Shown: piece by piece, positions 26,878 to 63,673 of the stretch
Layout of the letters: each line of letters begins with the position of its first letter
How positions within the stretch are numbered: position 1 is the first letter of the stretch
Assembly (NCBI RefSeq): GCF_947036865.1
Contig: NZ_CAMQSF010000012.1
Location: forward strand, 1 to 64,000
Source: an uncultured Caulobacter sp.
GTDB lineage: Bacteria; Pseudomonadota; Alphaproteobacteria; Caulobacterales; Caulobacteraceae
Length of the DNA: 64,000 bases
Direction of reading: 5' to 3'
Program-made: the position numbers and the translations under genes
Notes under the pieces: model-generated
Told to the model about the DNA's origin: nothing
Database searches by the model: none
The model's input: the letters and a program-made list of their open reading frames with translations, nothing else

Positions 26878-26879
26878 TC

Positions 26880-27553: not shown

Positions 27554-27635
27554 GCTTCCTCCGGCGGGTAGCATCGGCCTTGCAGCGTCGTCCGCGCAAT
27601 GCCTCTCACTCCGATCGGAGCGCAATTTTCGCCAG

Positions 27636-27652: not shown

Positions 27653-27724
27653 CAGGCCTCGCCGAGCGCTAAACCCTTGTTGCGCCGCCGGCGCTTTGGT
27701 CCTGTCTAGAGAGCCTCCCGCCCG

Positions 27725-29369: not shown

Positions 29370-29374
29370 CCGCG

Positions 29375-31783: not shown

Positions 31784-31784
31784 T

Positions 31785-32791: not shown

Positions 32792-32793
32792 GC

Positions 32794-34047: not shown

Positions 34048-34050
34048 CCG

Positions 34051-35579: not shown

Positions 35580-36712
35580 GCCCGCCCGATCCAGGCCAAG
35601 CCGCCCGCGACGCCGTCCGGCTACGCGCGCCGCCGCCCAAGGTCGCGCGGCTCTCGCGGGTCGCGGTCACGTGCCTGGCGGGCTTGGCCGCAGCGAGCGT
35701 CGGCGCCGCCATCACCCTGGCGCTGCAGCCCCAAAAGCCCAAGCCCACGGTGCTCAAAGCCGAGACTGGCGATGGCCGCCCCCCGCAGGTGACGGGCCCG
35801 AGGACCTACGCCGAGGTTCCCAGGCTTGGACCGCCGCTCCCGGGCGACCTCGGACGCCCGATCGTCGCGGCCCAGGCTCGTGGCCAGGACGTCCCCACGC
35901 CGCCGGTCGGCCAATCAGGCCAAGATCCAAGAGAGCAGGCCCGAGCTCAGGCCGTTGAGACCGCACGCACAAGCCCCGTGTTCAATCGCACCAACAACGC
36001 AGCGACGGCGCCTTCTATCGCTATGCCACTCCCGGCGCAGACGGGACCGACGACACTCCCCGAGGCCCGTTCGGGGACTTCGATCACCGACAGCCGTCGC
36101 GGGTTCCTCGATCAAGACAGCCCGCCCTCCACCAGCGCCTTTCGCCCGACGTCGCCGGCAGGTCGGTACGTGCTGCTCGCGCAGACCGTCATTCCCGCCG
36201 CCCTGATCAGCGCCGTCAGCTCCGACCTGCCCGGCCCCGTCTCGGCCCAGGTGACCCGCAATATCCATGACAGCCTGACCGGCCGGACAATTCTCATCCC
36301 GCAAGGCTCGAGGCTGATCGGCCGCTACGATAGCCAGGTCGCCTTCGGCCAAAGACGTGTGTTGCTGGCCTGGGACAGGGTGATCTTTCCCGATGGCCGC
36401 TCCCTGCAGCTCGACCGTCTGGTCGCGGGCGACAGCCAGGGCCGTTCGGGGCTCGTGGACGAGATCAACGCCCACTGGGGCGACATGGCCAAGGCCGCCC
36501 TGCTCTCCAGCACTCTCGGTGCTGGCGCCGCCATTGGGGCTGACGACGAGAGCGACATCGCTCGCGCCCTGCGCCAGGGCGTGCAGGACACGGTCAACCA
36601 GACGGGCCAGCAGGTTGTGAGAAAGCAGCTGGACGTGCAGCCGACCCTGACGCTGCGCCCGGGCCTTCCCCTCACAGTCATCGTAACCCGCGACATTGTC
36701 TTCGACGACTAG
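35576..36712 (+). CDS. trbI: Conjugal transfer protein TrbI (VirB10)
   Basis: 378 residues from GTG 35576 in a 4-base overlap with trbG. One N-terminal membrane helix ('VTCLAGLAAASVGAAITLAL'), a Pro/Gln-rich linker and the VirB10 beta-barrel domain: 'LLAQTVIPAALISAVSSDLPGPVSAQVTRNIHDSLTGRTILIPQGSRLIGRYDSQVAFGQRRVLLAWDRVIFPDG'. The end 'QPTLTLRPGLPLTVIVTRDIVF' is also typical. Last gene of the trb operon; the LysR gene overlaps its 3' end by four bases from the other strand. Confidence 0.95.
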   Translation: MSPPDPGQAARDAVRLRAPPPKVARLSRVAVTCLAGLAAASVGAAITLALQPQKPKPTVLKAETGDGRPPQVTGPRTYAEVPRLGPPLPGDLGRPIVAAQARGQDVPTPPVGQSGQDPREQARAQAVETARTSPVFNRTNNAATAPSIAMPLPAQTGPTTLPEARSGTSITDSRRGFLDQDSPPSTSAFRPTSPAGRYVLLAQTVIPAALISAVSSDLPGPVSAQVTRNIHDSLTGRTILIPQGSRLIGRYDSQVAFGQRRVLLAWDRVIFPDGRSLQLDRLVAGDSQGRSGLVDEINAHWGDMAKAALLSSTLGAGAAIGADDESDIARALRQGVQDTVNQTGQQVVRKQLDVQPTLTLRPGLPLTVIVTRDIVFDD

Positions 36713-44826: not shown

Positions 44827-45288
44827 TTACCACCGTCCGCCGATCTGCGCGCTCGGTTCGCCCCCGGCAAGCCACACGCGGATAGCAGCGGCAACATTAT
44901 CCTGCTTGCGCTTTGCCCGCCCCCGGAGTGCGCACTCCCACACCGTAAGCACTCGCCACCCAGCGCTAAGCAAAGTCGCTTGGTCCCGGACATCACGTGC
45001 CTGATTTCGCTCGATCTTCTCCCGCCAGAAATCTTGGCGGGTGGCAGGCAGCTTGAACATCGGACAGTCATGCCCGTGCCAGAAACAACCGTGCACGAAG
45101 ATCACTGCACGCCGGCCGGGAAACACCAAGTCAGGCTTACCTGGCAGATTGCCATGGAGGCGGTATCGCAGGCCGGCGGCGTGTAGCGCGCGGCGGACGA
45201 TCATCTCCGGCTTGGTGTCCTTCCCACGTATAGCCGACATGTTCCGTCGCCGTTGTTCGGCGGTCAGCGGGTCGACGCCGCTGGTCAC
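44827..45288 (-). CDS. vsr: Very short patch repair endonuclease (Vsr), second copy
   Basis: 153 residues, clearly Vsr: 'EQRRRNMSAIRGKDTKPEMIVRRALHAAGLRYRLHGNLPGKPDLVFPGRRAVIFVHGCFWHGHDC' with catalytic Asp in 'KPDLVF' and Cys/His zinc site, then 'LLSAGWRVLTVWECAL'. It differs in many positions from the copy at 39.7 kb, so it is not a recent duplicate. Last gene of the second, McrB-like methylation module; it starts 17 bases after the DUF2357 gene. The 170-bp gap before it (44657-44826) shows nothing. Confidence 0.95.
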   Translation of the reverse strand: MTSGVDPLTAEQRRRNMSAIRGKDTKPEMIVRRALHAAGLRYRLHGNLPGKPDLVFPGRRAVIFVHGCFWHGHDCPMFKLPATRQDFWREKIERNQARDVRDQATLLSAGWRVLTVWECALRGRAKRKQDNVAAAIRVWLAGGEPSAQIGGRW

Positions 45289-45305
45289 TGGCGGCCTGCG
45301 CGCGG

Positions 45306-46955
45306 TCAGGGCGCCGCTCCGACATCCGCATCCTTGAGGATCGTCTCAAGCGCCATTTCGATCTGGCCGGCATTCATCCCGGGCGCCAGCGTCACGGCGC
45401 CGAACCGGAACTTCCCCCGATAGTCAGGATGAAACAGCCGCCCCGGCATCGCCGCGGTTTCCCAGTTGCCCCCGAAAGTCGGCGAAGCCGGGCTGAGGAG
45501 GTATGCGCCGCTCACCAGCTGGCGCACCTCGCCCGCGCCATCAGCAACGACGAGAGCATCCCGGTACATGTGGGCCGACGCCAGCGCATCGTTCAGCCCG
45601 GCGCCAATACGATACTTTGCGTCGAGGACGATCAGGCGGCCTGCCCCATCAAGGGCCTCAATGGCGACGTCGGGACGCATTTCACGGCTGAAGCTGCCGC
45701 GACCATCCCTTTCGCGCCAGTACTCGCGGTACGTCCTTTGAAAACAGAGTGCGATCCCCGCCGAGGGGAGGCGAACGACCGCCTGGCCGGCGGCCAGTGT
45801 GATGCCCTGTCCTGCTTCAAAAAGCCCGGAGAAATCGACCTCATCGGCGCCGTACTTCACCACGGCCGCGCGGGCGAGCCGCAAGTACGACCACAGCTCA
45901 TAGAGGTCAAATGTCCGCGCCAGTGGCATTTGCAGGAAGTCGCCAAAGACGTCGGCAATGCCCCTGGAAAAATCACGATGGAGCGCCGCGAACCGCCTGT
46001 ACTGAGGCTCGCCGCGCCAGATTGGCGTGGCGTCAGGCCGCGGAGGCCCTGCTCCGATATCCTGCAGGAATGGTAGCGCCAGGAGGTCCCTAAGCTCCCT
46101 GGACATTCGTCGTGTACGACGCGCCCAAAGCCTGACCAGACGCCCGTCCTCAGGATCTTCCGGTGTGCGCTTTCCGAAATCACTGGCCACGCCATCGAGC
46201 CAGCGCGCCCACACCTCCAGCGAGGCCTTGATCTGCCGGTGCGCGGGGATGTCGAGACTGGACCTGCGGATACTCCGTCGGATCGTAGCGGGCAGATGCC
46301 CTCGCATCGCGGAGGGAAGTCGCGAGCCCCCAGTTTCCGCGATCAGGCGCCCTGAGCGGAAGGACTTCAGCACTTCGGGCGGCGTTGCGCGGCCAGCCCG
46401 CCAGAATGGCGTCAGCTCGTCCTCTGCTTTGAGAACGCGCCTTGGCCTTGCATCGATGGCGCGGACCGTCTGGACCAGTATGCCCATACGGCTCCGCAGA
46501 AACTCAAGACGGGCAACGGGCGGCGGTTTGCGTCCGGCGCCGCGGGCCACAGCCTTCCGGAACGAACTGAGGGCGAAGAGCGCGAAGGTGTCCTCGAGCA
46601 CCTCGCTCACCATTACGTCGAAGGCCTCACGGCTGAGCTTGCGCACTTCCGGGTCTGTCGTGATCTCGAAAGCGAAACTCTGCCCCTGGAGCTTCAGGCA
46701 GCAATCCACGACGCCGGCATGAAAGCCCGGCTCCCATCTCCAGCGCGCAGCGTCCGGCTCCGGGGCGCGCAGCGCTTCGAGCGGCAGCTCATCAATGAGC
46801 AGATCCGCCTGCGCCGCGCCCTGGGCGCCTGTCAGAACGAAGAGGTGCTCACGCGCCTCTTCGATCAGACCTGATGGCATCGCTTCGGGGTCCGGCCAGA
46901 CCCGGACCGCCCGCGTAGGATCGCGGCTTGGCCAGATGTGGAGTGTGGCGCTCAC
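45306..46955 (-). CDS. DUF2357/PD-(D/E)XK nuclease-like protein (McrC-type partner)
   Basis: 549 residues. The N-terminal two-thirds fit DUF2357 ('FAFEITTDPEVRKLSREAFDVMVSEVLEDTFALF', 'FDLYELWSYLRLARA'). The C-terminal nuclease core is 'SREMRPDVAIEALDGAGRLIVLDAKYRIG', i.e. D-x(n)-(D)-A-K of PD-(D/E)XK enzymes (about 435-460). Its start overlaps the McrB-like stop in four bases, so they are coupled, as in McrBC and the BsuMI/LlaI-type systems where the AAA protein drives the nuclease. Confidence 0.85.
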   Translation of the reverse strand: MSATLHIWPSRDPTRAVRVWPDPEAMPSGLIEEAREHLFVLTGAQGAAQADLLIDELPLEALRAPEPDAARWRWEPGFHAGVVDCCLKLQGQSFAFEITTDPEVRKLSREAFDVMVSEVLEDTFALFALSSFRKAVARGAGRKPPPVARLEFLRSRMGILVQTVRAIDARPRRVLKAEDELTPFWRAGRATPPEVLKSFRSGRLIAETGGSRLPSAMRGHLPATIRRSIRRSSLDIPAHRQIKASLEVWARWLDGVASDFGKRTPEDPEDGRLVRLWARRTRRMSRELRDLLALPFLQDIGAGPPRPDATPIWRGEPQYRRFAALHRDFSRGIADVFGDFLQMPLARTFDLYELWSYLRLARAAVVKYGADEVDFSGLFEAGQGITLAAGQAVVRLPSAGIALCFQRTYREYWRERDGRGSFSREMRPDVAIEALDGAGRLIVLDAKYRIGAGLNDALASAHMYRDALVVADGAGEVRQLVSGAYLLSPASPTFGGNWETAAMPGRLFHPDYRGKFRFGAVTLAPGMNAGQIEMALETILKDADVGAAP

Positions 46956-49456
46956 CGGCTGGTCTGGAACGCCCCAAGCTCGTCAAGATCGCGTTGCAGC
47001 CGATCTATCAGAGCTCGCGAGCGGGGCCGGCCGGCATTGGTCTCGGCAAGCTTCCGGAGAAGGTCGCGCTGAGCCTCCGAGCCGCGCAGTCGCGCCAGGG
47101 CTTTCTGGACAAGCTGGTCATCGATCACCTCCTCCGACGACCGGCCGAGATGATCGGTGGCGAAGGCGTGGTAACGGACGAACTCTTCGGCCAGTCGATA
47201 GCCAAAGCCAAGTCCGTGCGGCCCCAGCAAAGCGCTCAGATCCTGGAGAACCGGCCGACAGGCGCCGATAGAGGCGTTCAGCGCATCCTCTCGAGCTCCA
47301 AGCGTGTCGAAGAAGGATCCAAGATCGACATCAGACATGTCGATGACAACGGCCCGGTCCATCACCTTGTCGCTAAGCGTGCTGGTCGTCTCGTCGACGT
47401 TGATCGTGCCGACCAGGAAGAGGTTGTGCGGCACGCGAAGGCTTGCCGGAACTTCACCGCCCGTACTGCCGACCATCGGCACGCCGCTGGAGTGGAGGGA
47501 GATTTCGTTGCGGCTCTCGATCGCGCTCAGGATGTCGGAGAAATAATACTCGACCCTGGCGAGGTTCATCTCGTCGAGAATGACGAACACCGGTGAGGCT
47601 GGGTGGGCGGTCGCCACCAGCAGCGCCTCCAGGAACTTTGGCACGACGTACTGGCCTGACAACCGATCCTCATAGCCGGTCAGGCCGCTCGGGTCGGTCC
47701 ACTCAGGACGCACCGGACAGACAAACAGCAGCGGATCCGCGGCCTCCATGCTCTCAAGGCCATGGATCGTGCGCGCGTATTGCAGGGCCAGCTGCGTCTT
47801 ACCCGTCCCCGAAAGCCCGGACAGAATGACGAAATGTTTGTGCTGCAGGTGGTTGAGGCCGGCGTGGAAACGGTCGATCAGGGCGTCAGGGTAGACCCCG
47901 CCCAGCGCCGCAACACCACGGCGGATCGCCTGCGGCGAGACGTCTGCCGGCATCCGCTGCATAAGCGGGCCAACGCCGCTCTCCGACGACCACACCTTCA
48001 GCTCATGCACCTTCTCGCGGCCCACGAGGCGCCCCAGGTAGCCGACAAACTCCCGAGCCAGCAGACTGCGCCTTGCCGAAACGGTCGGCGGCCAGATCGC
48101 GAATTCAATCGATTCTACAGCCGCCGAACGGCTTCTGAGTGTCGGCTCGGCTGAGATCGATTCGAAGAAGTCATTGCTGAAACCAATCCTGCCTTCTTCG
48201 TTGAGGTAGAATTTGACGTTGTTGTTGATCCGCGACGGTCGATCACCCTCAGCCTTCCCCCCGTTACGCGCCTCGACATCCCGGTAGAGTTCGACCAGGC
48301 CGGCATCGAGGCTCTCACGGTCTTCGCTGACGGTGATCGCGAAGTAGACCTCGTCATATGGCGGAAACGTCAGGACAGAGGCGAAAACGTAAGCCGATGC
48401 CCCGCCGGCGCCCGTGATCACGTTCTTTGACGCGCCCTCCATGTTTGCCGTGCAGGCAAACAGTCCGCCCTCGAGGAGACGCGCGCTGTTCGAGAAGCCA
48501 AAATTGGTCGCGACCTTCGCATTAGGGCCGGCTTTTTCCGTGACGAAAGCGGTGAACTGCTTCTGCCGATCAGTGGAGGACTGCGCCGGCTGGGGCAGAT
48601 CGCCCAGCGGCAGGGTATTTTGCTTACTCACCACAGACTTACTCTCGCTCCCCTCATCGGAGCGCCACTTTGAGGCGAACTCAGCCTCATAGAAATCGAA
48701 ATCTGCACTCCCGCGCGCCTGCGCGATCGAATTCCGGATTTCGAAGAGCCGACGATCCCTGGCCGCCCGGTCTAACTGTTTTACCGCCGCCGGGTCATCG
48801 CCACCCAGGCCAACAATCACCCGGCGCTTGTCGGCGCCGCTCGAAATTCGCTCGAACACGTCGGGGAAGAGGAGGTGCTCGACGATATGCGAGAACTGGC
48901 GCGTGCCGTCGGAATGGACGCTGGCCAGAAACCCTGAAAAGGCCCAGGCGTCGCCCAGGACTTGAACCCTCTCTGGCGGGGGAAGGTCCTTCAGCCGGGC
49001 GACCAGGTCGAGAAGATAGGCAAACTCCCGAGGTCGGTGGGTATTGAAGGCCGTACCGGCCGAGCCAAGCCCCCCGAGAACATCGTCGCTCAGCCACTTT
49101 TCATCAGGAGCCGAATGCTTCGAGCGCCAGGACAGTACCTCATGCACAGTTTCCCGCTTCTTGTCCGCTCCGATATTCGAAGGAAACAGAAGCAGGATCC
49201 AGAGTAACTCGGCTGCGAGCTCATGGATGGCGTCAGCCTGACCAGTGAGCTGCCTTCTGAGCTTGGTGAGAAAGCTGTCCTGCCCATCCTCTGCGCCGTC
49301 CCGGAAGGCATTTCGCACCTGGGCGATGTTGGCGCCGGTCCAGAGACCGCGCCCCGCGAAAAGGGCCGATCCATCTGTCAGGAGACAGCTATGGCGCCAG
49401 TGCGCGGCGGCTGCGAATACCGCGTCCGCGGGATGATGAGGGTTGAATCTCGACAT
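46952..49456 (-). CDS. McrB-like AAA+ NTPase
   Basis: 834 residues. The N-terminal half (1-300) is unrecognised. A middle region with 'AKVATNFGFSNSARLLEGGLFACTANMEG' may be a DNA- or base-recognition part. The C-terminal AAA+ motor follows: Walker A 'ILSGLSGTGKTQLALQYA' (about 545-562), 'FVCPVRPEWTDPSGLTGYED' (McrB-type), Walker B 'VFVILDEMNLARVEYYFSDILS' and 'VGTINVDETTSTLSDKVMDRA' (sensor and Arg finger). The McrB signature is firm. It lies seven bases after the methyltransferase gene. Confidence 0.88.
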   Translation of the reverse strand: MSRFNPHHPADAVFAAAAHWRHSCLLTDGSALFAGRGLWTGANIAQVRNAFRDGAEDGQDSFLTKLRRQLTGQADAIHELAAELLWILLLFPSNIGADKKRETVHEVLSWRSKHSAPDEKWLSDDVLGGLGSAGTAFNTHRPREFAYLLDLVARLKDLPPPERVQVLGDAWAFSGFLASVHSDGTRQFSHIVEHLLFPDVFERISSGADKRRVIVGLGGDDPAAVKQLDRAARDRRLFEIRNSIAQARGSADFDFYEAEFASKWRSDEGSESKSVVSKQNTLPLGDLPQPAQSSTDRQKQFTAFVTEKAGPNAKVATNFGFSNSARLLEGGLFACTANMEGASKNVITGAGGASAYVFASVLTFPPYDEVYFAITVSEDRESLDAGLVELYRDVEARNGGKAEGDRPSRINNNVKFYLNEEGRIGFSNDFFESISAEPTLRSRSAAVESIEFAIWPPTVSARRSLLAREFVGYLGRLVGREKVHELKVWSSESGVGPLMQRMPADVSPQAIRRGVAALGGVYPDALIDRFHAGLNHLQHKHFVILSGLSGTGKTQLALQYARTIHGLESMEAADPLLFVCPVRPEWTDPSGLTGYEDRLSGQYVVPKFLEALLVATAHPASPVFVILDEMNLARVEYYFSDILSAIESRNEISLHSSGVPMVGSTGGEVPASLRVPHNLFLVGTINVDETTSTLSDKVMDRAVVIDMSDVDLGSFFDTLGAREDALNASIGACRPVLQDLSALLGPHGLGFGYRLAEEFVRYHAFATDHLGRSSEEVIDDQLVQKALARLRGSEAQRDLLRKLAETNAGRPRSRALIDRLQRDLDELGAFQTSR

Positions 49457-49463
49457 CCCTGCT

Positions 49464-50969
49464 TCAGCCCGCTTCGGCCGAGGGGCGGACCAGATCTGAA
49501 CCGCGCGCCAGAGCCGACCGCAGCGTTGCGAGCATCTCGGTCGCGACAGCCTTGGACAGCAGCGGAGGCACGGCGTTGCCGATCTGCTTGAACGCCGGAT
49601 TCATCGTCCCGGAAAATACAAATCCATCCGGAAAGGACTGAAGCCGCGCGGCCTCGCGAACCGATATGGTCCGAGCCTGAGCGCTGTCGTAGTGAATGTG
49701 GCTGTAGCTGTCCTTACCCAGGTGCGCCATAAGCGTGCGCGCCGGCAGGTCAGGCTCCATCTTGCGCCACTTGTTGGGGAATTTTCCAACGTCGTAGGGC
49801 GGGACGATGGAGTCGCGCAGGTTCTGCCATGCGGCAGATCCCTTCCTCGGCGCGGAGCCGGTCTCGCGACGCAGGGCCTCCAGCGCTTCCTCAAACATGC
49901 GCAGCGCATGGGCGTGCGCCTGAGGATACTGATCTCCGGGATTGAGGCGAGCGAACAGCTTCCAGTCGCGGGGCAGATAACGGATGACGTGATCGCGCAC
50001 GCCATCGCTGTTCTCCCGACCGCTCCAGCCCCGCATAAGGGCGCCGTAGCTCCCGGCACGCGCCTTGCCGCCGTAGGGGATCAGTTCATCGAACCTGCGC
50101 GCCCCCTTGGTAAGCTTTCCCTCGAGATGCAGCGTGATCGGCGGCAGGTCCTCAAGCGCCGCCTTGGCGGTGATCGCTGGCGGCAGAGACGGATCAGCTT
50201 CAGGCGGATCCATGTAGCTGACCGGCTCTCCGCTCGTTGACCGGCGGTTCAGGAGTTTCAGCGCCACCTGCCGGCTGCCCGCGTAGCCGGGGGGCAGCTT
50301 CATGTAGTGGGTGGGCTGCGGGAAGCTGATTTCGGCGCCGAGTTCCTTGCGATAGGCGATCAGGATCATCCGCTCGCGCATCTGGGGAACGCCGAAGTAC
50401 GAGGCATTGAGCAGCGTATAGCCCGCGACGTACCCCTTATCGCGCAGGACCTCGCACGTCTCCTCAGCGATATTCTGGCCGCCATGATTGAGCATGTCCG
50501 GCACATTTTCCATCAGAAGCGCCAGAGGCTGGAACGCTTCCACATAGTGCAGGTACTCCAGATAGAGGCGGGCCCGAGGATCGTGCTTGAACGCCTCGGG
50601 ATGCTCATCGATCTCCCGCAGCTTTGAGCGCCCGACGCGCGCGAACGCCTGACACGGCGGCCCGCCCACAATGACGTCGATCGCGGAAGAGACGCCGCCC
50701 AGCTCCAGATCCTCCGCGAGCTGTTCAGGCGAGAGTCTGGTGATATCGCGAGGCTGAGCGTGTCGCGGGTCGCCCGGGTGAAAGTTGGCGCCATGCGACG
50801 CGGCCGCATCGCGATCAAACTCAACCGCCGCGGCGATTTCAAACCCAGCCGCCTGGAATCCGAGGGAGATGCCACCGCAGCCGGCGAAGAGATCGAGCAC
50901 CCTTGGGGCCCCGCCGGCCTGCAGGCGAGCGATTTTTGACAGTATGGTCTGGCGCGTATCGACAGTCAT
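49464..50969 (-). CDS. DNA (cytosine-5) methyltransferase, second copy
   Basis: 501 residues. Motifs: 'RVLDLFAGCGGISLGFQAAGFEIAAAVEFD' (I), 'DVIVGGPPCQAFARVGRSK' (IV), 'LALLMENVPDML' (VI), 'MRERMILIAYR' (VIII), then 'TISVREAARLQSFPDGFVFSG' and 'QIGNAVPPLLSKAVA' (IX-X). The target-recognition region is long (about 230-420) and differs from that of the 40-kb enzyme, so a different site is expected. Protects DNA from the adjacent McrB/DUF2357 nuclease if that is its restriction partner. Confidence 0.93.
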   Translation of the reverse strand: MTVDTRQTILSKIARLQAGGAPRVLDLFAGCGGISLGFQAAGFEIAAAVEFDRDAAASHGANFHPGDPRHAQPRDITRLSPEQLAEDLELGGVSSAIDVIVGGPPCQAFARVGRSKLREIDEHPEAFKHDPRARLYLEYLHYVEAFQPLALLMENVPDMLNHGGQNIAEETCEVLRDKGYVAGYTLLNASYFGVPQMRERMILIAYRKELGAEISFPQPTHYMKLPPGYAGSRQVALKLLNRRSTSGEPVSYMDPPEADPSLPPAITAKAALEDLPPITLHLEGKLTKGARRFDELIPYGGKARAGSYGALMRGWSGRENSDGVRDHVIRYLPRDWKLFARLNPGDQYPQAHAHALRMFEEALEALRRETGSAPRKGSAAWQNLRDSIVPPYDVGKFPNKWRKMEPDLPARTLMAHLGKDSYSHIHYDSAQARTISVREAARLQSFPDGFVFSGTMNPAFKQIGNAVPPLLSKAVATEMLATLRSALARGSDLVRPSAEAG

Positions 50970-51983: not shown

Positions 51984-52526
51984 ATGGACCCCAAGCTTCC
52001 GCGCGTTGCGACCCAGCCCGAGGGCGGCTGGGACGACCGCGATGATCTGGACAGGCTTTACAGGCGCTATGCGCCCTGGCTTGGCGCGATGCTGCGCCGG
52101 CGCTTTGGACGCGGCATCGACGCGGACGCCGACGACGTCGTGCAGGAAACCTATGCTCGCCTGGCCCCACGCAACACGAATGAGATCCGCAGCCCCCAGG
52201 CCTTGCTCATGCGGGTGGCCTCCAATCTGGCCAAGGATCTGCTCCGTCGGCGCGCCGTCCGCGCCCGCCATGCCGAGGCGGTTCAGTCCGGTCCCGGCGA
52301 GCCGGGGGCTACCGCCACGCCCATGGAAGATCTTCTCGTCAGGGAGCTGATCCTGTCGATCCCCGAGCGGTATCGGGACGTCTTCGTCTTGAGCCGTTTC
52401 GAGGGTTTGACTTATGAAGAGATCGCTACACGCTGTGGTTTATCGGTGAAAGCGGTGGAGTGGCGGCTGAACAAGGCCCTCGAACACTGTATCGTGCGCT
52501 TGCAGGACGAAGCGGAAGACGCCTGA
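51984..52526 (+). CDS. ECF sigma factor (FecI type)
   Basis: 180 residues, preceded by GGAGTAGG. Region 2: 'LDRLYRRYAPWLGAMLRRRFGRGIDADADDVVQETYARLA' and 'SPQALLMRVASNLAKDLLRRRAVRAR'. Region 4: 'ILSIPERYRDVFVLSRFEGLTYEEIATRCGLSVKAVEWRLNKALEH'. The anti-sigma gene begins one base after its stop. With FecR and the TonB receptor it forms a cell-surface signalling unit; here it stands in a lasso-peptide locus, so the signal is probably the lasso peptide or its cargo, and the target is the receptor/isopeptidase transcript. Confidence 0.92.
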   Translation: MDPKLPRVATQPEGGWDDRDDLDRLYRRYAPWLGAMLRRRFGRGIDADADDVVQETYARLAPRNTNEIRSPQALLMRVASNLAKDLLRRRAVRARHAEAVQSGPGEPGATATPMEDLLVRELILSIPERYRDVFVLSRFEGLTYEEIATRCGLSVKAVEWRLNKALEHCIVRLQDEAEDA

Positions 52527-52527: not shown

Positions 52528-53523
52528 ATGAGCCCTTCGACCGTCCCTTCGAACCAGGCCAGGAGCGAGGCGAGCGCGTGGTTCGCCCGTCTGAACAAGC
52601 GCGCCGTGCCCGCCGCCGACATGGAAGCCTTTCAGGCGTGGCGTCGCCTGCCCGGCAACAGGGCAGCCTATGACGAGGTCGACGCCTTCTGGCGTCGCAG
52701 TCAGGCTGTTCACGGGGATTCCGACATCCAGGCTGCTATTTCGTCGGCGCACGCGCGCGCCAGGAGCAAGCCTCGCAGACCCGCGGGCCTGGTCGCTGGC
52801 CTCGGCGCGGCCTTCGCCCTGGCGCTGGTGGTCGTGGGCGGCGTGGCCGGCTATCGGCTCTATGGACCGGCCACTTACGAGACCCGCGTGGGCGAGCAGC
52901 GGCTGGTGCGTCTGAGCGACGACTCCACGGTGATGCTCGACACCGACAGCAAGGTGCTCGTGCGCTACGACCGGGGTCACCGCAATCTTGAGCTTCTCGA
53001 AGGACGCGCGATGTTCGAGGTCGCCCACGACGCGGCCCGGCCATTCGTCGTGCGAGCTGGAAACACCTCGGTGACGGCGCTGGGCACAAGGTTCGACGTT
53101 CGCCGCGCCGACGGCGGCGCCGAGGTCACCCTGGTCAGGGGCTCGGTTGAGGTGCGCGAGGCCAAGGGCGCCGCGCCGGTCGTCTGGCGGCTTTCGCCCG
53201 GCCAGGGTCTGTCGACGGCGGCCCCCACGCCTCGGCCGGTCTCTGTCGATCTCCCGACCGAGACGAGCTGGACGACGGGACGCCTGGTGTTCAACCGCGT
53301 GCCGCTCAAGGCGGCTGTGGCCGAGGTCAACCGCTACGACCGGCGCAAGATCGTTCTCGACGTCGGCCCGCTCGACGCAGCCCTGATCAGCGGAACCTTC
53401 GACGTCGGCGACACCGACACCTTCGTGAGCTCGGTGGCGGAGATGAACGATTTCGTGGTCCAGCGCTCGGGCGACGGGCCCATCCGGCTGGCGCGCGGCC
53501 CCGCGCCGCCGGCTACCCCCTGA
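52528..53523 (+). CDS. FecR-family anti-sigma factor
   Basis: 331 residues. The N-terminal DUF4880 cytoplasmic part ('ASAWFARLNKRAVPAADMEAFQAWRRLPGNRAAYDEVDAFWRR') binds the sigma factor. One membrane helix ('GLVAGLGAAFALALVVVGGVAGY', about 87-110) precedes the FecR domain ('ETRVGEQRLVRLSDDSTVMLDTDSKVLVRYDRGHRNLELLEGRAMFEVAHDAARPFVVRAGNTSVTALGTRFDVRR'). The C-terminal DUF4974-like part ('NRVPLKAAVAEVNRYDRRKIVLD') would contact the receptor's STN domain. Confidence 0.93.
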   Translation: MSPSTVPSNQARSEASAWFARLNKRAVPAADMEAFQAWRRLPGNRAAYDEVDAFWRRSQAVHGDSDIQAAISSAHARARSKPRRPAGLVAGLGAAFALALVVVGGVAGYRLYGPATYETRVGEQRLVRLSDDSTVMLDTDSKVLVRYDRGHRNLELLEGRAMFEVAHDAARPFVVRAGNTSVTALGTRFDVRRADGGAEVTLVRGSVEVREAKGAAPVVWRLSPGQGLSTAAPTPRPVSVDLPTETSWTTGRLVFNRVPLKAAVAEVNRYDRRKIVLDVGPLDAALISGTFDVGDTDTFVSSVAEMNDFVVQRSGDGPIRLARGPAPPATP

Positions 53524-53645
53524 AATTCTTTTTCGCGGCGACAGGAATGAGCCGGAGATGGCGCGTCTGAGCCACGATGCCATGCGCCGTGCACAGAAGA
53601 TCCGTCACACGACGGACGCCGGGCCGGTGTCGGAGGGGACCGATC

Positions 53646-56600
53646 TTGCCTAGCACCACCTTGAAACACCGCCTGCTCGCGAGCCTGGCCGCCACGCTGC
53701 TGGGGACGGCATGCGCGGCTCAGGCCATGGCCGCGCCGACCGAGCAGAACCAGGTCGTCGCGTTCAACATCCCGCCCGGGCCTCTTGAGCCGGCGCTACA
53801 GGCCTTCGCCGCTCAGAGCGGCCGCCAGATCCTGTTCGCGCCGGAGCTGGTCGCGGGCCTGACGACCGCGGGCGTTCGCGGAAGCCTGACACCCGAGGCG
53901 GCCATCGCACAACTGGTGGCCGGAGCGCCCCTCGAGATCCGGCGCGGCGGCAAGAGTGGGTTTGTCCTGAAGGCGCGCGCCGTCGCGGCGGGAGGCGACA
54001 CAACCGCCCCTTTTGAAGCGACCGGGGAAGGCCCCGCCAACGAGGTCGCCGAACTGCTGGTCACGGGATCGCTGATCCGCGGGGCGAGGGACGGCGCCTC
54101 GCCCGTCGTCGCCTTCGACCGCGAGGCGATCGACCGCGCCGGCCACGGCAACCTCGCCGAAGCCCTCGCGGCCCTGCCGCAGAACTTTGGCGGCGGTGCG
54201 AGCCCGGCCAGTCAGTTGCTCGGCTCGGACCGAACCTTCGTCAACGACACGGCGGCCTCGGGCGTCAACCTGCGAGGCCTGGGCAACTCCGCGACCCTGG
54301 TGCTGCTCAACGGCCGGCGCATGGCCGGGACCGGCCTGAAGGGCAATTTCGCGGATGTCTCGGCGATCCCCACCGGGGCCATTGACCGCGTCGAAGTGCT
54401 GCTGGACGGCGCCTCGGCGCTCTACGGCGCGGATGCGGTGGGCGGTGTCGTCAACGTCATCCTGCGCCAGACGTTCGAGGGGGCCGAGACCCGTCTGCGA
54501 TCGAGCCTTGCCCAGAGGGGCGACGCGGCCGAGCTGCAGTTCGGCCAGACCTTCGGCGCGCGCTGGAGCGGAGGCCGCGCCGTGGTTTCGGCGGAGTATT
54601 ATCAACGCGACGCCCTGGCCGCCTCGGCACGCGCCCAGACCGCAAGCAGCGACCTGCGTCCGCTGGGCGGGACCGACCACCGGGTCCAGTTCGCCAATCC
54701 CGGGAACATCGTCGCCTACAGCGCAGCGGCCGGGGCCTATGTGCCGGTCTACGCCATCCCGTCCAGGGGCGTCGGGCTCAAACCCTCCGATTTCGTGGCG
54801 GGGGCGATGAACTTCGGCGAGCCCCGCGCGGGATCTGACACGCTGCCCGATCAGGAGCGCGTCAGCCTCTATGCGACGCTCGGCCAGACCCTGGGCGCGG
54901 TCGAACTGTCCGCCGACGCGCTTTACACCCACCGCAAGTTCAGCTTCGCCCAGGGCGGTTCCTCCTCGATCATCACCGTCACCAGCGCCAACCCCTATTT
55001 CGTGCCGATCGCGGGGGAGGCCTCACAGTTGATCGCCTATGACTTCGTCGGCGTGCTCGGCTCAAACCGGCTCGAGGGCACGGCCGAGAACCTTGGCCTG
55101 TCGCTCGGCGCGGCCCGCGATTTCGGGCGCACCTGGCGCGGCGAAGTCTACGCGGCGTTCTCGACGGACAAGGGTGAGCGCAACCAGGACCAGGCGCTCA
55201 ATTCCGGCTTCCTGCGCGAGGCTCTGGGCTCGGTCGCCGATGATCCTTCGACAACCTATTCGGCCGCGCGCGACGGCTACTTCAATCCCTATGGCGACGG
55301 CGCGGCGAACAGTGATGTGGTCAAGGCCTTCATCCGCAGCGGCTACCAGCACCACTGGCGACGCAACCGCGTTTCCTCGGTCAACCTGAAGCTCGACGGT
55401 ACGCTGGCGGAACTTCCAGGCGGCGCGCTGAAGCTCGCGGCCGGGGGGCAGTTGCGCAAGGAGGACTTTCTTGTTCGCAACGCCTACCTGACCTCGGGCG
55501 CCAGGGTGACGACGACGGACGGCACGCTGTTCGAACGTGACGTCCGCTCAGCCTTCGCCGAACTGCGCGTGCCGATCTTCGGCCCTCACCAGGACATCCC
55601 TGGCCTGCGCCGCCTGGAGCTTTCGCTCGCCGGCCGCATCGAGCGCTACAGCGACTTCGGGGTGAGCCGAAATCCCAAGGTCGGCGTGGTCTGGGAGCCG
55701 GTCGAGGGCGTCAGGTTCCGAACCAGCTACGGCACCTCGTTCCGCGCGCCCACCCTGGCCGACATCAACGAGCCCTATGTGATCAGCGCCGCCTTCGTGC
55801 CCGACGTGACGGGCAACACGTTGAGCCTGATCCAGACGGGCGGGAACCTTGGCCTGCGGCCCGAGACCGCGCGGTCGTGGACGACCGGCGTCGACCTGAC
55901 GCCAGCCTCCCGTCCCGGGGTCCGACTGGGCGTCACCTACTTCGACACGCGGTTTTCCAACCAGGTCGGACATCCGGTCTACGAGGACATCCTCAACGCC
56001 CTGAAGAACCCGATCTACAAGGACTTCGTTCGACGGCTCAGCGCCAGCAACGCCGGCGATGTCGCCGCTGCTCAGGCGCTCATCGACGCGGCGACGAGTT
56101 CGACGCCAAAACTGTTCCCCGCCAACGCCTATGGCACGATCATCGATGCGCGGAACCTCAACGCCGGTGAGCTGGACGTGCGCGGCCTCGACATCAGCGG
56201 CGCCTGGCCCGCCAGGCTCGGCGGTGAGACGCTCAGCCTGACCGCGAGCGTGTCATACCTGTTCGAGTACAGCCGGCGCATCAGCCCCTCGGCGCCCTCG
56301 ACATCCTTCGTCGACACTGCTGGTTTCCCCGTCGACCTGCGCGCCGTGGCCGGGGCCAGTTGGACCCACGGGCCACTCCTGGCCAACCTCTCCGTCCGCT
56401 ATGTCGACGATTACCGATCGACGACGGGCCAGAGGATCGGCTCGTGGACCACGACTGATGTGCTGATGCGCTGGACCGCGCCAGCGTCAGCGGGTCCGCT
56501 CCGCGGCGTTACGGCCAGCCTGTCGGTCCAGAACCTGCTGGGGACAAAGGCGCCGTTCTACGACTCGTTCGACGGGGTGGGCTACGACCCGACCAACGCC

Positions 56601-56648
56601 GACGTGTTGGGCCGCGTGGTCGCCCTACAGCTGAACAAGCGCTGGTAG
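53646..56648 (+). CDS. TonB-dependent receptor with N-terminal signalling (STN) domain
   Basis: Outer-membrane receptor of 1000 residues. I choose TTG 53646 because GGAGGGG lies seven bases upstream and the frame then opens straight into a signal peptide (LKHRLLASLAATLLGTACAAQAMA). ATG 53577 in the track adds an Arg-rich leader without a ribosome site. The STN domain follows ('VVAFNIPPGPLEPALQAFAAQSGRQILFAPELVAGLTTAGVRGSLTPEAAIAQLVAGAPLEIRR'). Then come a TonB-box-like region, the plug ('LLVTGSLIRGARDGASP', 'GVNLRGLGNSATLVLLNGRR', 'RVEVLLDGASALYGADAVGGVVNVI') and a barrel ending in aromatic 'LQLNKRW'. In lasso loci of this type the receptor takes up the threaded peptide. Confidence 0.93.
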   Translation: MPSTTLKHRLLASLAATLLGTACAAQAMAAPTEQNQVVAFNIPPGPLEPALQAFAAQSGRQILFAPELVAGLTTAGVRGSLTPEAAIAQLVAGAPLEIRRGGKSGFVLKARAVAAGGDTTAPFEATGEGPANEVAELLVTGSLIRGARDGASPVVAFDREAIDRAGHGNLAEALAALPQNFGGGASPASQLLGSDRTFVNDTAASGVNLRGLGNSATLVLLNGRRMAGTGLKGNFADVSAIPTGAIDRVEVLLDGASALYGADAVGGVVNVILRQTFEGAETRLRSSLAQRGDAAELQFGQTFGARWSGGRAVVSAEYYQRDALAASARAQTASSDLRPLGGTDHRVQFANPGNIVAYSAAAGAYVPVYAIPSRGVGLKPSDFVAGAMNFGEPRAGSDTLPDQERVSLYATLGQTLGAVELSADALYTHRKFSFAQGGSSSIITVTSANPYFVPIAGEASQLIAYDFVGVLGSNRLEGTAENLGLSLGAARDFGRTWRGEVYAAFSTDKGERNQDQALNSGFLREALGSVADDPSTTYSAARDGYFNPYGDGAANSDVVKAFIRSGYQHHWRRNRVSSVNLKLDGTLAELPGGALKLAAGGQLRKEDFLVRNAYLTSGARVTTTDGTLFERDVRSAFAELRVPIFGPHQDIPGLRRLELSLAGRIERYSDFGVSRNPKVGVVWEPVEGVRFRTSYGTSFRAPTLADINEPYVISAAFVPDVTGNTLSLIQTGGNLGLRPETARSWTTGVDLTPASRPGVRLGVTYFDTRFSNQVGHPVYEDILNALKNPIYKDFVRRLSASNAGDVAAAQALIDAATSSTPKLFPANAYGTIIDARNLNAGELDVRGLDISGAWPARLGGETLSLTASVSYLFEYSRRISPSAPSTSFVDTAGFPVDLRAVAGASWTHGPLLANLSVRYVDDYRSTTGQRIGSWTTTDVLMRWTAPASAGPLRGVTASLSVQNLLGTKAPFYDSFDGVGYDPTNADVLGRVVALQLNKRW

Positions 56649-56705: not shown

Positions 56706-59147
56706 ATGCGACTGCTTCTGCAGTGCGCAGCCCTTTGCTGCGCCCTCTTCGCCACGGCCGCGCAGGCCCGACCCTTCACCGTCGACGACCTGATGAAGAT
56801 CGATCGTCGCTCGGCGGTCGGCGCCTCGCCCGATGGCCGCTGGCTGGTCATCACGATCGATCGTGGCCTCGACCATGCGCCGCGCTTCGACTACGGCGCC
56901 GCGCCCCAGTTCATCACCCGACGGCTTTACCGCGTCGACCTCGCCCATCCTGGTCCGGCCACACCGCTCCTCGCGCAGGACGCGGACGCCGGATACACGG
57001 CCGGTCCGTTCTCTCCCGATGGTCGCCGGCTGCTGGTCACGCGCATGCGCGGGCACAGCTCCGAGAGCGGCGTCGTCGAGCTCGCCACGGGCGCTGTCCG
57101 CTGGTTTGGCGTCGGGCTCGACTTTTCGCTCATGGGACGCACCGCTCAGTGGCGCGGTGACCACGAGGTCGTCGCCATCGTCACACCGCCCGATCGCCCG
57201 CACTTCGTCTTCCGGCGTGGCTGGGAGAGCATGGCCTACCGCTCGGCGGCCGCCCGGATCACCGCGGAGACCGGAGGGCCCAGCGTGCTGGCGATCGGCA
57301 GCGGCAAATACCTCGACCGCGGCGCGCCAGGCATGCAGCGGGCGCTTGTCCGCATTGATGTCGACACCGGTCGCTTCAGACCGCTGGCGACCGGCGAGTT
57401 CCTGGATCTCGAGCTATCGTCGAGCGGCCGCTACGTGGCCACCTACGCCTATGGCGCCGACATCCAGCCGAGGGCCTCGGACCGGATCCTCGGCGGGACC
57501 TCGCCGCGACGCCGCGACCTCTCGGTCTTCGACCTGGAGACCGACAGGCGGCTGCCCGGCTGTGAGGACTGCGACCTGTCATCCTTCCTGCTGGCCTGGG
57601 CGCCGCGGTCGGACCGGTTGCTGGTCTATGCCCGCCGGCCCGGCCAGCCACCGGAGGCCGGCGGCCTCATGATGCTCACGCCGCAGACCGGCCGCCTCAC
57701 CGCTCGCCGGCTCGACCAGGTCAGACCGCGCCTCGACTACACCTACGAGGGGTTCGAGATTCCGCGCGCCGGCTGGGTCGGCGAGACGGCGGTCGTGCTC
57801 GGTCGGCCAGCGGCCGGTCCAGACTCGCCGCCCGACCGGTGGCTGAAGGTGGTGGGCGAAGGGACCGCGCCGCTCCTGCCGGAGGCGGCCCCCACGCGCC
57901 CCGACCGGATTGTCAGCGACGCGGCAGGCCGGATGGTGGTGGTCGGCGCCGGGCGGGTCTTGCGGATCGCGCGTGGCCGCATGACCAGCCTGGACGGCGC
58001 AACCGCCGCGCCGGCCCCGGTGCTGGGTGAGCAGGGCCGCCCGGCCATGGCCAGCCTGGTCGCGGGCGACGGGCTGCTCGTCCGCCGCAACGGTCGGCTG
58101 GTCAGGCTGACAGCGGAACGCGAGCAGGACCTTGGCGAAATCTCCGACACGGCCCTGGTCGTTACGGGAAGCGGCTGGTCGGTCATCGCCGACCGCGACG
58201 GCCATGGGGTCGAGACCATAAGGGCCCGACACGGCGGCGAGACGGTCGAGCTGATGACGCTCAACCCGCAACTGGCGGGCATCGAGTTCGGAGAGGTCCG
58301 GGCCATCGCCCACAAGGGCCCGAGCGGCGAGCCGCTCACCAGCTGGATCGTGCTTCCGCCAGGCTGGCGCGCGGACCGTCCGCCGCCGCTGGTGGTGATC
58401 CCCTATCCCGGCCGCGGGGTCTTCGGCGCGGCGGCCCCACCAGCCGACGCCCGGCCCGGCGCCGCCCATTCCACCGTTTCGCCGCTGGTGCTGGCTGGCC
58501 ACGGCTATGCCGTGCTCTATCCGAGCCTGCCGCACAACCGCTTCCCCAACGAACCGGCTCAGGGCCTGGCCGAGGAGATCCTCGCCGTGCTCGACACGCC
58601 GGAAGTCGCCCGCCTTGCCGATAGCGGGCGGGTGGCGATCTGGGGCCATAGCTTCGGCGGTCAGGCGGCGCTGTCAGCGGCGACCCAGTCCGATCGTTTC
58701 AAAGCCATCATCTGCACGGCCGGGATCAGTGACATGATCACGCGCTGGGGAAGCAACTTCCTGCAATCGACGCCAGAGGAGGGCCTGCCGTTCATGGGCA
58801 CCTTCGGCTATTTCGAAACCGGACAGATGGCGGTCGGCGGGCCGCCCTGGGCCGTACCGGAACGATACGTCCGAAACAGCGCGCTCTTCCACGCCGACAA
58901 GATCACCGCGCCGGTGCTGCTCGCCTATGGCGATCTCGACGAATATGGCTATGGGCAGGGCGCGGAGATGTTCGCCGCGCTCTATCGCCAGGGCAAGGAT
59001 GCGCGCCTGCTGACGTTCTGGGGCGAAGGCCATGTGGTGAACGGGCCCGGCAATGTCCGGCGGCTTTATCGCGAGGCCCTAGACTTCCTCGACGAGGCGT
59101 TCGGGGCTCGGCCGAGGTCCGAGCCCGGCGAGCCGGCGCGTCCATGA
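56706..59147 (+). CDS. Lasso peptide isopeptidase (prolyl-oligopeptidase family, AtxE2-like)
   Basis: Opens the macrolactam ring of the matching lasso peptide, turning it linear. 813 residues: signal peptide 'LLLQCAALCCALFATAAQA', an N-terminal beta-propeller-like part ('SAVGASPDGRWLVITIDRG', 'GPFSPDGRRLLVTRMRG') and a C-terminal alpha/beta-hydrolase. Triad candidates by reading the frame: Ser649 in 'WGHSFGG', Asp745 in 'YGDLDEYG' and His776 in 'GEGHVVNG'. It follows the receptor gene by 57 bases. Its last 69 bases overlap the 3' end of the C gene tail to tail. The family is known from astexin, benenodin and sphingonodin-type loci. Confidence 0.9.
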   Translation: MRLLLQCAALCCALFATAAQARPFTVDDLMKIDRRSAVGASPDGRWLVITIDRGLDHAPRFDYGAAPQFITRRLYRVDLAHPGPATPLLAQDADAGYTAGPFSPDGRRLLVTRMRGHSSESGVVELATGAVRWFGVGLDFSLMGRTAQWRGDHEVVAIVTPPDRPHFVFRRGWESMAYRSAAARITAETGGPSVLAIGSGKYLDRGAPGMQRALVRIDVDTGRFRPLATGEFLDLELSSSGRYVATYAYGADIQPRASDRILGGTSPRRRDLSVFDLETDRRLPGCEDCDLSSFLLAWAPRSDRLLVYARRPGQPPEAGGLMMLTPQTGRLTARRLDQVRPRLDYTYEGFEIPRAGWVGETAVVLGRPAAGPDSPPDRWLKVVGEGTAPLLPEAAPTRPDRIVSDAAGRMVVVGAGRVLRIARGRMTSLDGATAAPAPVLGEQGRPAMASLVAGDGLLVRRNGRLVRLTAEREQDLGEISDTALVVTGSGWSVIADRDGHGVETIRARHGGETVELMTLNPQLAGIEFGEVRAIAHKGPSGEPLTSWIVLPPGWRADRPPPLVVIPYPGRGVFGAAAPPADARPGAAHSTVSPLVLAGHGYAVLYPSLPHNRFPNEPAQGLAEEILAVLDTPEVARLADSGRVAIWGHSFGGQAALSAATQSDRFKAIICTAGISDMITRWGSNFLQSTPEEGLPFMGTFGYFETGQMAVGGPPWAVPERYVRNSALFHADKITAPVLLAYGDLDEYGYGQGAEMFAALYRQGKDARLLTFWGEGHVVNGPGNVRRLYREALDFLDEAFGARPRSEPGEPARP

Positions 59148-61590: not shown

Positions 61591-61707
61591 TCAGCCTTGC
61601 GGGACCATCGGCTGCAGCTGGAAGTCCAGCCCGATGTCGCCGCCGCCGCGGGTCAGGCGCTTGGCCTTGCCCAGTCTGACGATGCGGGGAGTCTGGATCG
61701 CCTTCAT
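61591..61707 (-). CDS. Lasso peptide precursor A2
   Basis: 38 codons, absent from the ORF track. ATG 61707 is preceded by AGGAGG at 5-base spacing; stop TGA 61591-61593. The leader of 20 residues ends 'RLGKAKRLTR', with the conserved Thr at -2. The predicted core is GGGDIGLDFQLQPMVPQG: Gly1, Asp8 (8-residue ring) and a 10-residue tail. It shares the leader motif R-(I/L)-V-R-L-G-x-A-K-R-L-T with A1 and the core pattern G-x-G-x-(I/V)-G-(L/F)-(D/E). An Asp at position 4 is too close for a usual ring. I do not recognise the core among named lasso peptides I remember. Confidence 0.9.
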   Translation of the reverse strand: MKAIQTPRIVRLGKAKRLTRGGGDIGLDFQLQPMVPQG

Positions 61708-61920
61708 GGCGTCCTCCTACGATGGCCGATCGGGGACCGGCGGTTGGTGGTGCGCGCGGCGTGATCTCGAAAGGCCATCTTCGCGACGCGACTGATGTCG
61801 ATCGCGGGCGCTCATCCGCGCCGCCTTGCGGCCAGGGCGTCGCCGGGCCTCAGGAAGCGGATGGCGCTCGCGGGCGACGAAGCCTCGTCTGGCGCTTCGC
61901 GGACACGTCACACGGCGCTG

Positions 61921-61946
61921 GCGGGCCGTCCGGGCCGACGGCCCGC
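61921..61946 (-). terminator. Hairpin just downstream of precursor A1
   Basis: GCGGGCCGTC-CGGGCC-GACGGCCCGC: 10-bp perfect stem with a 6-base loop, 6 bases past the A1 stop, with no T-run. It is more likely an attenuator or 3' mRNA stabiliser that gives extra precursor over B and C than a full terminator. The rest of the 213-base gap to A2 holds no lasso-type frame. Confidence 0.65.
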
Positions 61947-61952
61947 GAAGCT

Positions 61953-62069
61953 TCAGCCGGCGTCGCGGCCGGGCTTCAGGTTGATCTCGAAGCCGACGGT
62001 GCCTTCGCCCTGCGTCAGGCGCTTGGCGTCGCCCAGGCGGACGAGGCGGAACTTGCGGGTCTTGGTCAT
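61953..62069 (-). CDS. Lasso peptide precursor A1
   Basis: 38 codons, absent from the ORF track. ATG 62069 is preceded by AAGGAG at 6-base spacing; stop TGA 61953-61955. The leader of 20 residues ends 'RLGDAKRLTQ', with Thr at -2. The predicted core is GEGTVGFEINLKPGRDAG: Gly1 with Glu8 gives an 8-residue ring, then a 10-residue tail. First structural gene after gntR on the - strand; A2, B and C follow. It has a Glu ring closer and a charged tail, where A2 has Asp and a Gln-rich tail. Confidence 0.9.
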   Translation of the reverse strand: MTKTRKFRLVRLGDAKRLTQGEGTVGFEINLKPGRDAG

Positions 62070-62143
62070 GACGAACTCCTTGGGGTTGGGATGGCCGCAC
62101 CATCGCGGCCCTTCATCAAGGGCGCCGCCCGATCTGCATTGGC

Positions 62144-62176
62144 AGTATATTGCAGCTATAACGACGCTATATTTGC
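62144..62176 (-). promoter_or_regulatory. AT-rich promoter/operator candidate of the lasso precursor operon
   Basis: Overlapping the gntR 3' end, the - strand has a good -10 (TATACT, 62149-62144), 75 bases before the A1 start. Next to it are TATATTGC (62146-62153, + strand), the near-palindrome TATAACGACGCTATA and TATATTTGCG. TATATTGC recurs in the gntR upstream region at 62905. These are plausible sites for the GntR protein. Confidence 0.5.
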
Positions 62177-62776
62177 GTGGGCGCGCATGGCGCGCACCAG
62201 GTCTGCGGCCCGCAACCGGCGCGCCTCGTGGAGGTCGCCAAGGGTCGTGGCCAGTCGCGTTCGATCACCCAGGCTTTCTTCCACGGCGTCGAGTTCATCC
62301 TCGACGGAGAAGACCTTGCCCTCGATCCTCACGGAGGGCGCAAGGCGTTCGCCGACCTGGCGATAGGCGTCGAACAGGGCGCGGTTGCCAGCGCGGGCGA
62401 CGATCCAGTCGAGCACCTGGCCGAGCCGGGCGGCCGGAGGCGTCGGCTCGTCGGGTTCTGGCGGCGGCTCGGCGCCGTCTGCAATCAGCGCCTCGGCGAG
62501 ATAGAGTCGGCGAAGGCCATAGAGCTCGACGAGGTCCGAGACATCGAAGCGCGGGGCGAAGTAGCCGCGTCCGCGTCTGTCCTCGATCAGCCGTTCTCCG
62601 GCCAGCCGCGACAGCGCCTCACGCACAGGCGTGGCGCTGAGGCCAAGGTCGTGGGCCAGTTCGGTGATGGTCAGGGGCTCGCCGGAAACCAGGCGGCCGC
62701 TTCTCAGCTGGCTGCGAAGCGCTTCGACGGCCACACTGAACGGGTCTCTTGGCTTGCCGGGGGCGTCGATCCTCAC
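62156..62776 (-). CDS. GntR-family regulator of the lasso locus
   Basis: 206 residues. The N-terminal winged HTH 'DPFSVAVEALRSQLRSGRLVSGEPLTITELAHDLGLSATPVREALSRLAGERLIEDRRGRGYFAPRF' (about 11-76) is of GntR type. A short C-terminal domain (about 80-206) is all-helical and not the full FadR length. It lies 86 bases upstream of precursor A1 on the same strand, with shared AT-rich motifs around both its own start region and A1. It probably represses itself and the precursor operon; the effector is unknown. Confidence 0.85.
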   Translation of the reverse strand: MRIDAPGKPRDPFSVAVEALRSQLRSGRLVSGEPLTITELAHDLGLSATPVREALSRLAGERLIEDRRGRGYFAPRFDVSDLVELYGLRRLYLAEALIADGAEPPPEPDEPTPPAARLGQVLDWIVARAGNRALFDAYRQVGERLAPSVRIEGKVFSVEDELDAVEESLGDRTRLATTLGDLHEARRLRAADLVRAMRAHANIASL

Positions 62777-63094
62777 GCAGACCTCCAGACCAGGAGACCG
62801 AACGCCAGGTTACGCCACGACTCTCCAACGATACGCAAAATAGTTTTTACGCTCTATCTTTGCAACCACAAGTATTTAAGACGGCCTATTCATTTTGATG
62901 CCAATATATTGCGTGAACGCGCAGATATTCTGCGCTTGATCTTTTCCACAACCTTAACTACGTGACGAACATCCGTCGCCCCGACCCCCGCCGCCATGAC
63001 GCCGCGGTTCTGTGGAGACGGCCCGCCGGTTACGGCTTCCGCTACAGCATCAGCCCCTGTTACACCTAGGGTAGTTCCGGCATGCGTGGTTTGG
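62777..63094. promoter_or_regulatory. AT-rich divergent region between gntR and the XRE-type gene
   Basis: 318 bp without a gene, clearly more AT-rich than its surroundings. It carries TATATTGC at 62905-62912, the same octamer as before precursor A1, and an inverted GCGCAGATATTCTGCGC at 62919-62935 (GCGCAGA/TCTGCGC arms with ATT between), a second operator-like dyad. These could serve GntR and the XRE-type regulator respectively. Confidence 0.5.
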
Positions 63095-63673
63095 ATGAGG
63101 GCTAAGGACTCCGAGGACAAGAAGCGCTCGAAGCTCCTCTCGCGCGCCCTGCGGGCGGTGCGCGCGATCCGCAAGGTGAAGCCGCACGACCTTGCCAAGG
63201 CCCTGGGCCTGTCGCTGCGCGGCTACCAGAACTTCGAGGCCGGCGGCGGTCAGCTCAACATCGAGCACGTGATGGCGTTCTCGCGCGCCATGGACTGCGA
63301 CCCGATCGGCGTCCTGGCGGCGGTGCAGATCGGCAAGCCCGAGTTCGCCGCCTGGGTCGCCCAGAACAAGGCGATGATCGCGTTCATGATCACCCTTCAG
63401 GAGTTCGCCGAGGAGACGGGCGGAGCGATGGCGCGCCTTGAGACCACCACCTGGGTCTCGGCCTACCGGGAGATGTTCAGGGACCTCTCCGAAAAGGCGC
63501 TCGCGGCGCAGGCGCGCGACGAGGCCTGGCTCAGCGAAAACGCCGCCCGGCTCGGCCTCGGCGCGGCGCCGACGGCGAGCCCGACGGCGACGGGCGCTCC
63601 CCGCGCGGACGTCGAGGCGAGCGACGCGCCTGGAGACGCCCACAAGCCGGGCGGCGAGGCCGACGGCTCATAG
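63095..63673 (+). CDS. XRE-like helix-turn-helix regulator of the ICE
   Basis: 192 residues from ATG 63095 (MRAKDSEDKKRSKLLSRALRAVRAIRKVKPHDLAKALGLSLRGYQNFEAGGGQLNIEHVMAFSRAMDCDPIGVL..). The track's 62996 start adds 33 residues of low-complexity sequence. The HTH spans about 14-75. The Ala/Pro/Thr-rich C-terminal tail from about 155 is probably disordered. It overlaps the relaxase 3' end by six bases tail to tail. Probably an ICE backbone regulator rather than a lasso gene. Confidence 0.75.
   Translation: MRAKDSEDKKRSKLLSRALRAVRAIRKVKPHDLAKALGLSLRGYQNFEAGGGQLNIEHVMAFSRAMDCDPIGVLAAVQIGKPEFAAWVAQNKAMIAFMITLQEFAEETGGAMARLETTTWVSAYREMFRDLSEKALAAQARDEAWLSENAARLGLGAAPTASPTATGAPRADVEASDAPGDAHKPGGEADGS

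Follow-up and report, generated by a model that had tools for sequence, protein, structure and literature searches.

The stretch of DNA analysed here, a window of 64,000 nucleotides from an uncultured Caulobacter sp., carries two short genes on its minus strand, A1 (61953..62069) and A2 (61591..61707). As had been proposed from the letters of the sequence, both are intact 38-codon ORFs, reading from 62069 to 61953 and from 61707 to 61591 with no frameshift in either, and both lie upstream of the genes for a leader peptidase, B (61509-60859), and a cyclase, C (60908-59079), which follow directly downstream. Each start codon has an AGGAG-type, purine-rich ribosome-binding site 6-7 bases 5' of the ATG (CCCCAAGGAGTTCGTC-ATG for A1 and CGTAGGAGGACGCC-ATG for A2), in keeping with the strong sites first described. 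The translation products consist of a leader (MTKTRKFRLVRLGDAKRLTQ in A1, MKAIQTPRIVRLGKAKRLTR in A2) that carries the expected motif, here VRLG(D/K)AKRLT(Q/R) with Thr at position -2, and of the same 18-residue cores that the original prediction had given (GEGTVGFEINLKPGRDAG and GGGDIGLDFQLQPMVPQG, respectively), for which rings are predicted between Gly1 and Glu8 in A1 and between Gly1 and Asp8 in A2. Recomputing the monoisotopic masses of the cyclised peptides (core minus water) gave 1797.901 and 1809.872 Da, in agreement with the earlier hand calculation, with [M+H]+ at 1798.908 (A1) and 1810.879 (A2). Both genes therefore show the features that define a lasso precursor: the leader, Thr at -2, a core that starts with Gly, Ala, Ser or Cys, and Asp or Glu at position 7-9. 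Their scores against the NCBIfam lasso-leader models (14.4 and 16.7 bits) fall below the cut-off of 19, which would account for an annotation that lacks them.

The two enzymes encoded next to these precursors, also on the minus strand, belong to the families expected of a lasso cluster. B is a 216-aa leader peptidase (PF13471, 8.8e-21; NF033537 lasso_biosyn_B2, 70.4 bits against a cut-off of 33), in which an N-terminal leader-binding (RRE/PqqD-like) part, whose residues 3-45 match TfuB1 weakly (E 0.013), precedes a C-terminal transglutaminase-like cysteine protease with motif residues C158 and H190. C is a 609-aa asparagine-synthetase-like macrolactam (lasso) cyclase with an SGGLDSS ATP motif at residue 251. 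It falls below the cut-offs of NF033561 and NF033535 (curated lasso-cyclase score 37 against 525), and is placed here by its match to PF00733 (3.7e-24) and by its homology to the caulosegnin cyclase (locus L020), with which it shares 38% identity.

Convergent to C lies a gene for an 813-aa S9/prolyl-oligopeptidase (56706..59147, plus strand; PF00326, 3.4e-25), preceded on the same strand by genes for a TonB-dependent receptor with an N-terminal STN signalling domain (53577..56648; PF00593, PF07715, PF07660), a FecR-like anti-sigma regulator (52528..53523) and a FecI-like ECF sigma factor (51984..52526), the last two assigned from sequence and position, with counterparts at the corresponding position in both L003 and L087. 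On the other side, a GntR-family regulator (62156..62776, minus strand; PF00392, 3.9e-15) precedes A1 and has counterparts beside all lasso loci examined. The locus thus contains a complete isopeptidase-type cluster (GntR, A1, A2, B, C, S9 isopeptidase, TonB receptor, FecR and FecI), and its arrangement, with GntR ahead of the precursors and, past the isopeptidase, the TonB receptor and the sigma/anti-sigma pair, is the nearly constant one of clusters of this type (PMC9266682). Next to gntR, and linked to it in every lasso locus examined, is a gene for an XRE-type HTH protein (62996..63673, plus strand; PF01381, 5.2e-06). The same neighbour, at 26-73% identity, was found beside GntR in all Caulobacter lasso loci examined, the caulosegnins included (the window; L003, L088, L091-L096 and L100-L102), and the reviewed isopeptidase-type architecture does not mention it.

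The S9 enzyme scores 72.9 bits against NF033523, the Atxe2 isopeptidase equivalog model, whose cut-off is 400; enzymes of about 810 aa beside other Caulobacter lasso clusters, including that of the caulosegnins, match this model far better. When the protein was aligned with AtxE2 (5TXC/5TXE), residues S649, D745 and H776 fell opposite S527, E610 and H638, of which S527 is marked as the catalytic serine by the S527A mutant chain of 5TXE, giving a predicted Ser-His-Glu/Asp triad of S649, D745 and H776. The enzyme is therefore a probable isopeptidase, an activity that, with scores so far below the curated cut-offs, rests on homology and position. Such an enzyme should return the two peptides to their linear masses of 1815.91 and 1827.88. 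Since these linear masses may dominate where the isopeptidase is present, a missing dehydrated mass would be a weak refutation of production.

To place the precursors among their relatives, we drew on sequences from across the genus and family, where relatives of the cyclase occur in 37 of 75 Caulobacter genomes and relatives of the isopeptidase in 95 of 299 genomes of the family. A precursor scan beside these relatives returned the exact sequences of caulosegnins I-III in L020, which served as a positive control, together with many further precursor pairs. Seven Caulobacter genomes, including that of the window, form a subfamily in which each cluster has two precursors with cores of 17-18 residues and leaders close to MTKTRKxRLVRLGDAKxLT. 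All 14 precursors have Thr at -2 and a purine-rich GGAG-type site upstream; all 14 cores begin with Gly1 and have an acidic residue at position 8 (Glu in 12, Asp in two), and most other core positions vary. The 8-residue ring put forward for A1 and A2 thus gains comparative support from the constancy of Gly1 and of the acid at position 8. In the closest named relative, Caulobacter sp. UNC358MFTsu5.1 (L003), the precursor pair comprises GQGDQNFEINTLPGKDVG and GGGDHGVDWLAQPMEPQG, the latter being the core of the A2 counterpart. Between the window and L003, the A1 leaders are identical at 19 of 20 residues, with four synonymous codon changes, and the cores at only 10 of 18, the pattern that a conserved leader and a diversifying core would be predicted to give, and one that supports ring closure at residue 8. 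Taken together, the leader motif, the adjoining B and C genes and the matching pairs in six other Caulobacter genomes support the identification of A1 and A2 as lasso peptide precursors.

In a phylogenetic analysis of the cyclases, the seven subfamily members fell into two well-supported clades (the window, L003 and L007; L024, L026, L071 and L072); the node uniting these clades has a support of only 14-15, too low to establish them as one group. For L008, L011, L014, L016 and further B-C loci that are intact, the scan returned no precursor; in the tree these loci group together as a separate, supported clade, and their precursors may have a leader of a different kind.

A conserved 21-bp element, TGCAATATACTGCCAATGCAG (62134..62154, minus strand), lies immediately past the stop codon of gntR and some 85 bp upstream of A1; by chance, 0.00 occurrences of it are expected in the window. 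Six of the seven subfamily clusters have it at the same place, either unchanged or differing at one or two positions, and the seventh has a degenerate form. It is absent from the other lasso loci fetched, and a search allowing up to one mismatch gave no second match in its own genome or in 298 others sampled from the order. This element is likely to be an operator for the local GntR, for which it is a candidate, or a promoter. A possible second copy upstream of gntR (62899..62913, minus strand; two mismatches) was set aside as weak and at chance level, about 0.4 such matches being expected in the window.

A second lasso locus was found at a contig edge of the same genome (L096/L084; G000:C11:1-6000). 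It encodes the precursor MRDSLQLIRLGSAKQLTQ|ASGGTLKAESVEFIRYDPL and another with the core AGGGTMHMEEGLPLYYDPV, both with predicted Ala1-Glu9 rings, as well as a B protein and a C protein cut by the contig end, and the same two cores occur in another Caulobacter (G027, L019). The genome assembly showed no close isopeptidase besides that of the window.

The suggestion that both cores of the window are new holds across the sources searched: neither returned a match in open-access full text, where the three caulosegnin cores, used as a control, did retrieve a paper, and neither appears in a 2025 table of more than 60 named lasso peptides (PMC12427821). The nearest named cores have only 6-7 residues in common with them in global alignment. 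It is likely, then, that the cores are novel, within a type of system that is already known. The cluster for caulosegnins I-III of Caulobacter segnis has the same A-B-C order, several precursors, a convergent isopeptidase and the same GntR and HTH neighbours, and caulosegnin I likewise has an 8-residue ring; it differs in its cyclase, which is 38% identical, in its cores, which form 8- and 9-residue rings, and in the absence of the 21-bp element from the stretches examined. The astexin-2/-3 cluster of Asticcacaulis excentricus, which encodes AtxE2, shares the isopeptidase, TonB receptor and FecI/FecR set and an S9 fold with a Ser-acid-His triad, but AtxE2 matches the S9 enzyme of the window with an E value of only 8e-6, and the cores of astexin-2 and -3 are longer and carry Asp9. 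Benenodin-1 of Asticcacaulis benevestitus also comes from an isopeptidase cluster, has an 8-residue Gly1-Asp8 ring and a leader similar to those of the window (NF033522, 16.5 bits, below the cut-off), whereas its core is unrelated in sequence and length. The most similar systems are those of L003 and the five further Caulobacter genomes, with two precursors, cores of 17-18 residues, G1 with E8 or D8, the upstream element and, mostly, a location on an integrative conjugative element (ICE); their cores are different, and none came up as a characterised peptide in the literature that was searched.

In the window, genes typical of such an element lie on both sides of the cluster. A tyrosine integrase (16522-18057) and the TraG coupling protein with the trb mating-pair genes (24916-36712) lie on one side, together with a serine recombinase; on the other, the HTH gene is followed by a DUF3363 relaxase protein, which runs from 63668 into L085, and then by TraF, ParA and RepA. 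Third-position GC is 0.88-0.95 for genes in the first 7.6 kb or so and mostly 0.65-0.88 thereafter. The order lasso-HTH-relaxase-TraF-ParA-RepA recurs in G017 (which contains L003), G006, G035 and G003; three of these, G017, G006 and G003, also have trb genes on the opposite side of the lasso cluster, so that the cluster sits between trb genes and relaxase in four genomes; the layout is the same in L003/L099, L087/L088/L097 and G003. Among the remaining subfamily members, G010 has chromosomal-looking neighbours with no relaxase nearby, and the locus of G029 is cut by the contig end. Judging from this gene content, the lasso cluster lies inside a trb-type ICE that is apparently capable of transfer between cells. 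The attachment ends of the element were not found, there is no tRNA gene in the window, and the contig ends at 89090. A plasmid origin was considered and found no support, as plasmid records gave only distant cyclases (identities below 37% in the listed rows and below 60% throughout).

Other cargo can be recognised on the element. Next to the lasso cluster is a block (44827-50969) of Vsr endonuclease, McrC-like and McrB-like ATPase proteins and cytosine methyltransferase, in which PADLOC reported Vsr, PDC-M26A and MTase_II, and an efflux-type gene set, named by eye only, lies at 13561-19249 of L085. At the caulosegnin locus (L095, 3116-8155), we noted ParB-like proteins and short MTTIG... proteins, similar to those of the window's ICE, next to the cluster, so the caulosegnin genes may likewise have come from a mobile element. 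Among open-access papers, none was found by title or abstract that treats lasso peptides together with integrative conjugative elements.

The precursor features, the enzyme families, the 14 cores, the caulosegnin control, the AtxE2 alignment, the architecture and the ICE genes on both sides together give strong grounds for concluding that the two precursors belong to an isopeptidase-type lasso cluster, similar to those of the caulosegnins and astexins, carried on an ICE. In such a pathway, the N-terminal part of B would bind the leader and its protease would cleave after Gln20 (A1) or Arg20 (A2), making use of Thr at -2; C would then adenylate the Glu8 or Asp8 side chain and link it to the amino group of Gly1 in an ATP-dependent closure, to yield two 18-residue peptides with 8-residue rings. 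Once exported, the peptides would be taken up through the TonB-dependent receptor and linearised by the co-encoded S9 enzyme, while the STN domain of the receptor would signal through FecR and FecI, inducing the uptake side, and GntR would repress the operon. Their role is most likely that of a signal or a scavenging molecule of the siderophore type, as a published hypothesis holds, and not that of an antibiotic. An extension of this idea, which we think unlikely, is that the lasso module has a function within the ICE, its peptide signal, sensed via the TonB receptor, FecR, FecI and GntR, reporting kin carriers or tuning the genes of the element, and so serving the element and not the host.

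Some lasso peptides with 8-residue rings are antibacterial, microcin J25 being one, and the peptides could be weapons of this microcin-like kind with the isopeptidase providing self-immunity, in line with the proposal that isopeptidases curb intracellular peptide levels (PMC9266682). This seems quite improbable, however, as there is no ABC transporter or exporter gene in or beside the lasso cluster, and as known isopeptidase-type lasso peptides, with the exception of astexin-1, lack antimicrobial activity (PMC9266682). It is harder still to credit that the peptides are cyclised at residue 8 and yet remain unthreaded, or are only transiently threaded, as branched-cyclic products. The tails, INLKPGRDAG and FQLQPMVPQG, do have no bulky aromatic plug after position 9, so that the thread could be labile, and caulosegnin I, with its ring of the same size, loses its thread when heated (PMC13352647); but the machinery is homologous to that which makes threaded peptides, and the requirement of AtxE2 for the threaded form (PMC9266682) argues that such clusters make threaded peptides. 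We infer a threaded lasso topology rather than a plain branched cycle.

Given that the cluster travels on an ICE alongside other cargo, it might also be a decaying or silent passenger whose precursors are unexpressed. We give this very little credence, as all genes are intact, the pair persists in seven genomes, where the leaders show synonymous changes and the ring position is constant, and the upstream 21-bp element is conserved. Finally, while many spurious ORFs occur in high-GC DNA, the idea that A1 and A2 are chance reading frames is refuted by the homologous pairs that other genomes carry at this position and by the observation of two precursor-like ORFs (LGxAxxLTx, then G/A/S/C, a core of 14-30 residues and an acid at 7-9) in the window, against a mean of 0.007 (maximum 1) in 150 first-order Markov simulations.

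As members of an isopeptidase-type lasso cluster on an ICE, the two cores extend a class in which peptides of this type have no settled function. The seven-genome set, in which the ring position is fixed and the loops and tails vary, offers a series in which the specificity of isopeptidase and receptor can be compared with core sequence. In addition, the location on an ICE suggests that such clusters spread as mobile cargo, and provides a route to asking what benefit they may bring to the recipient cell.
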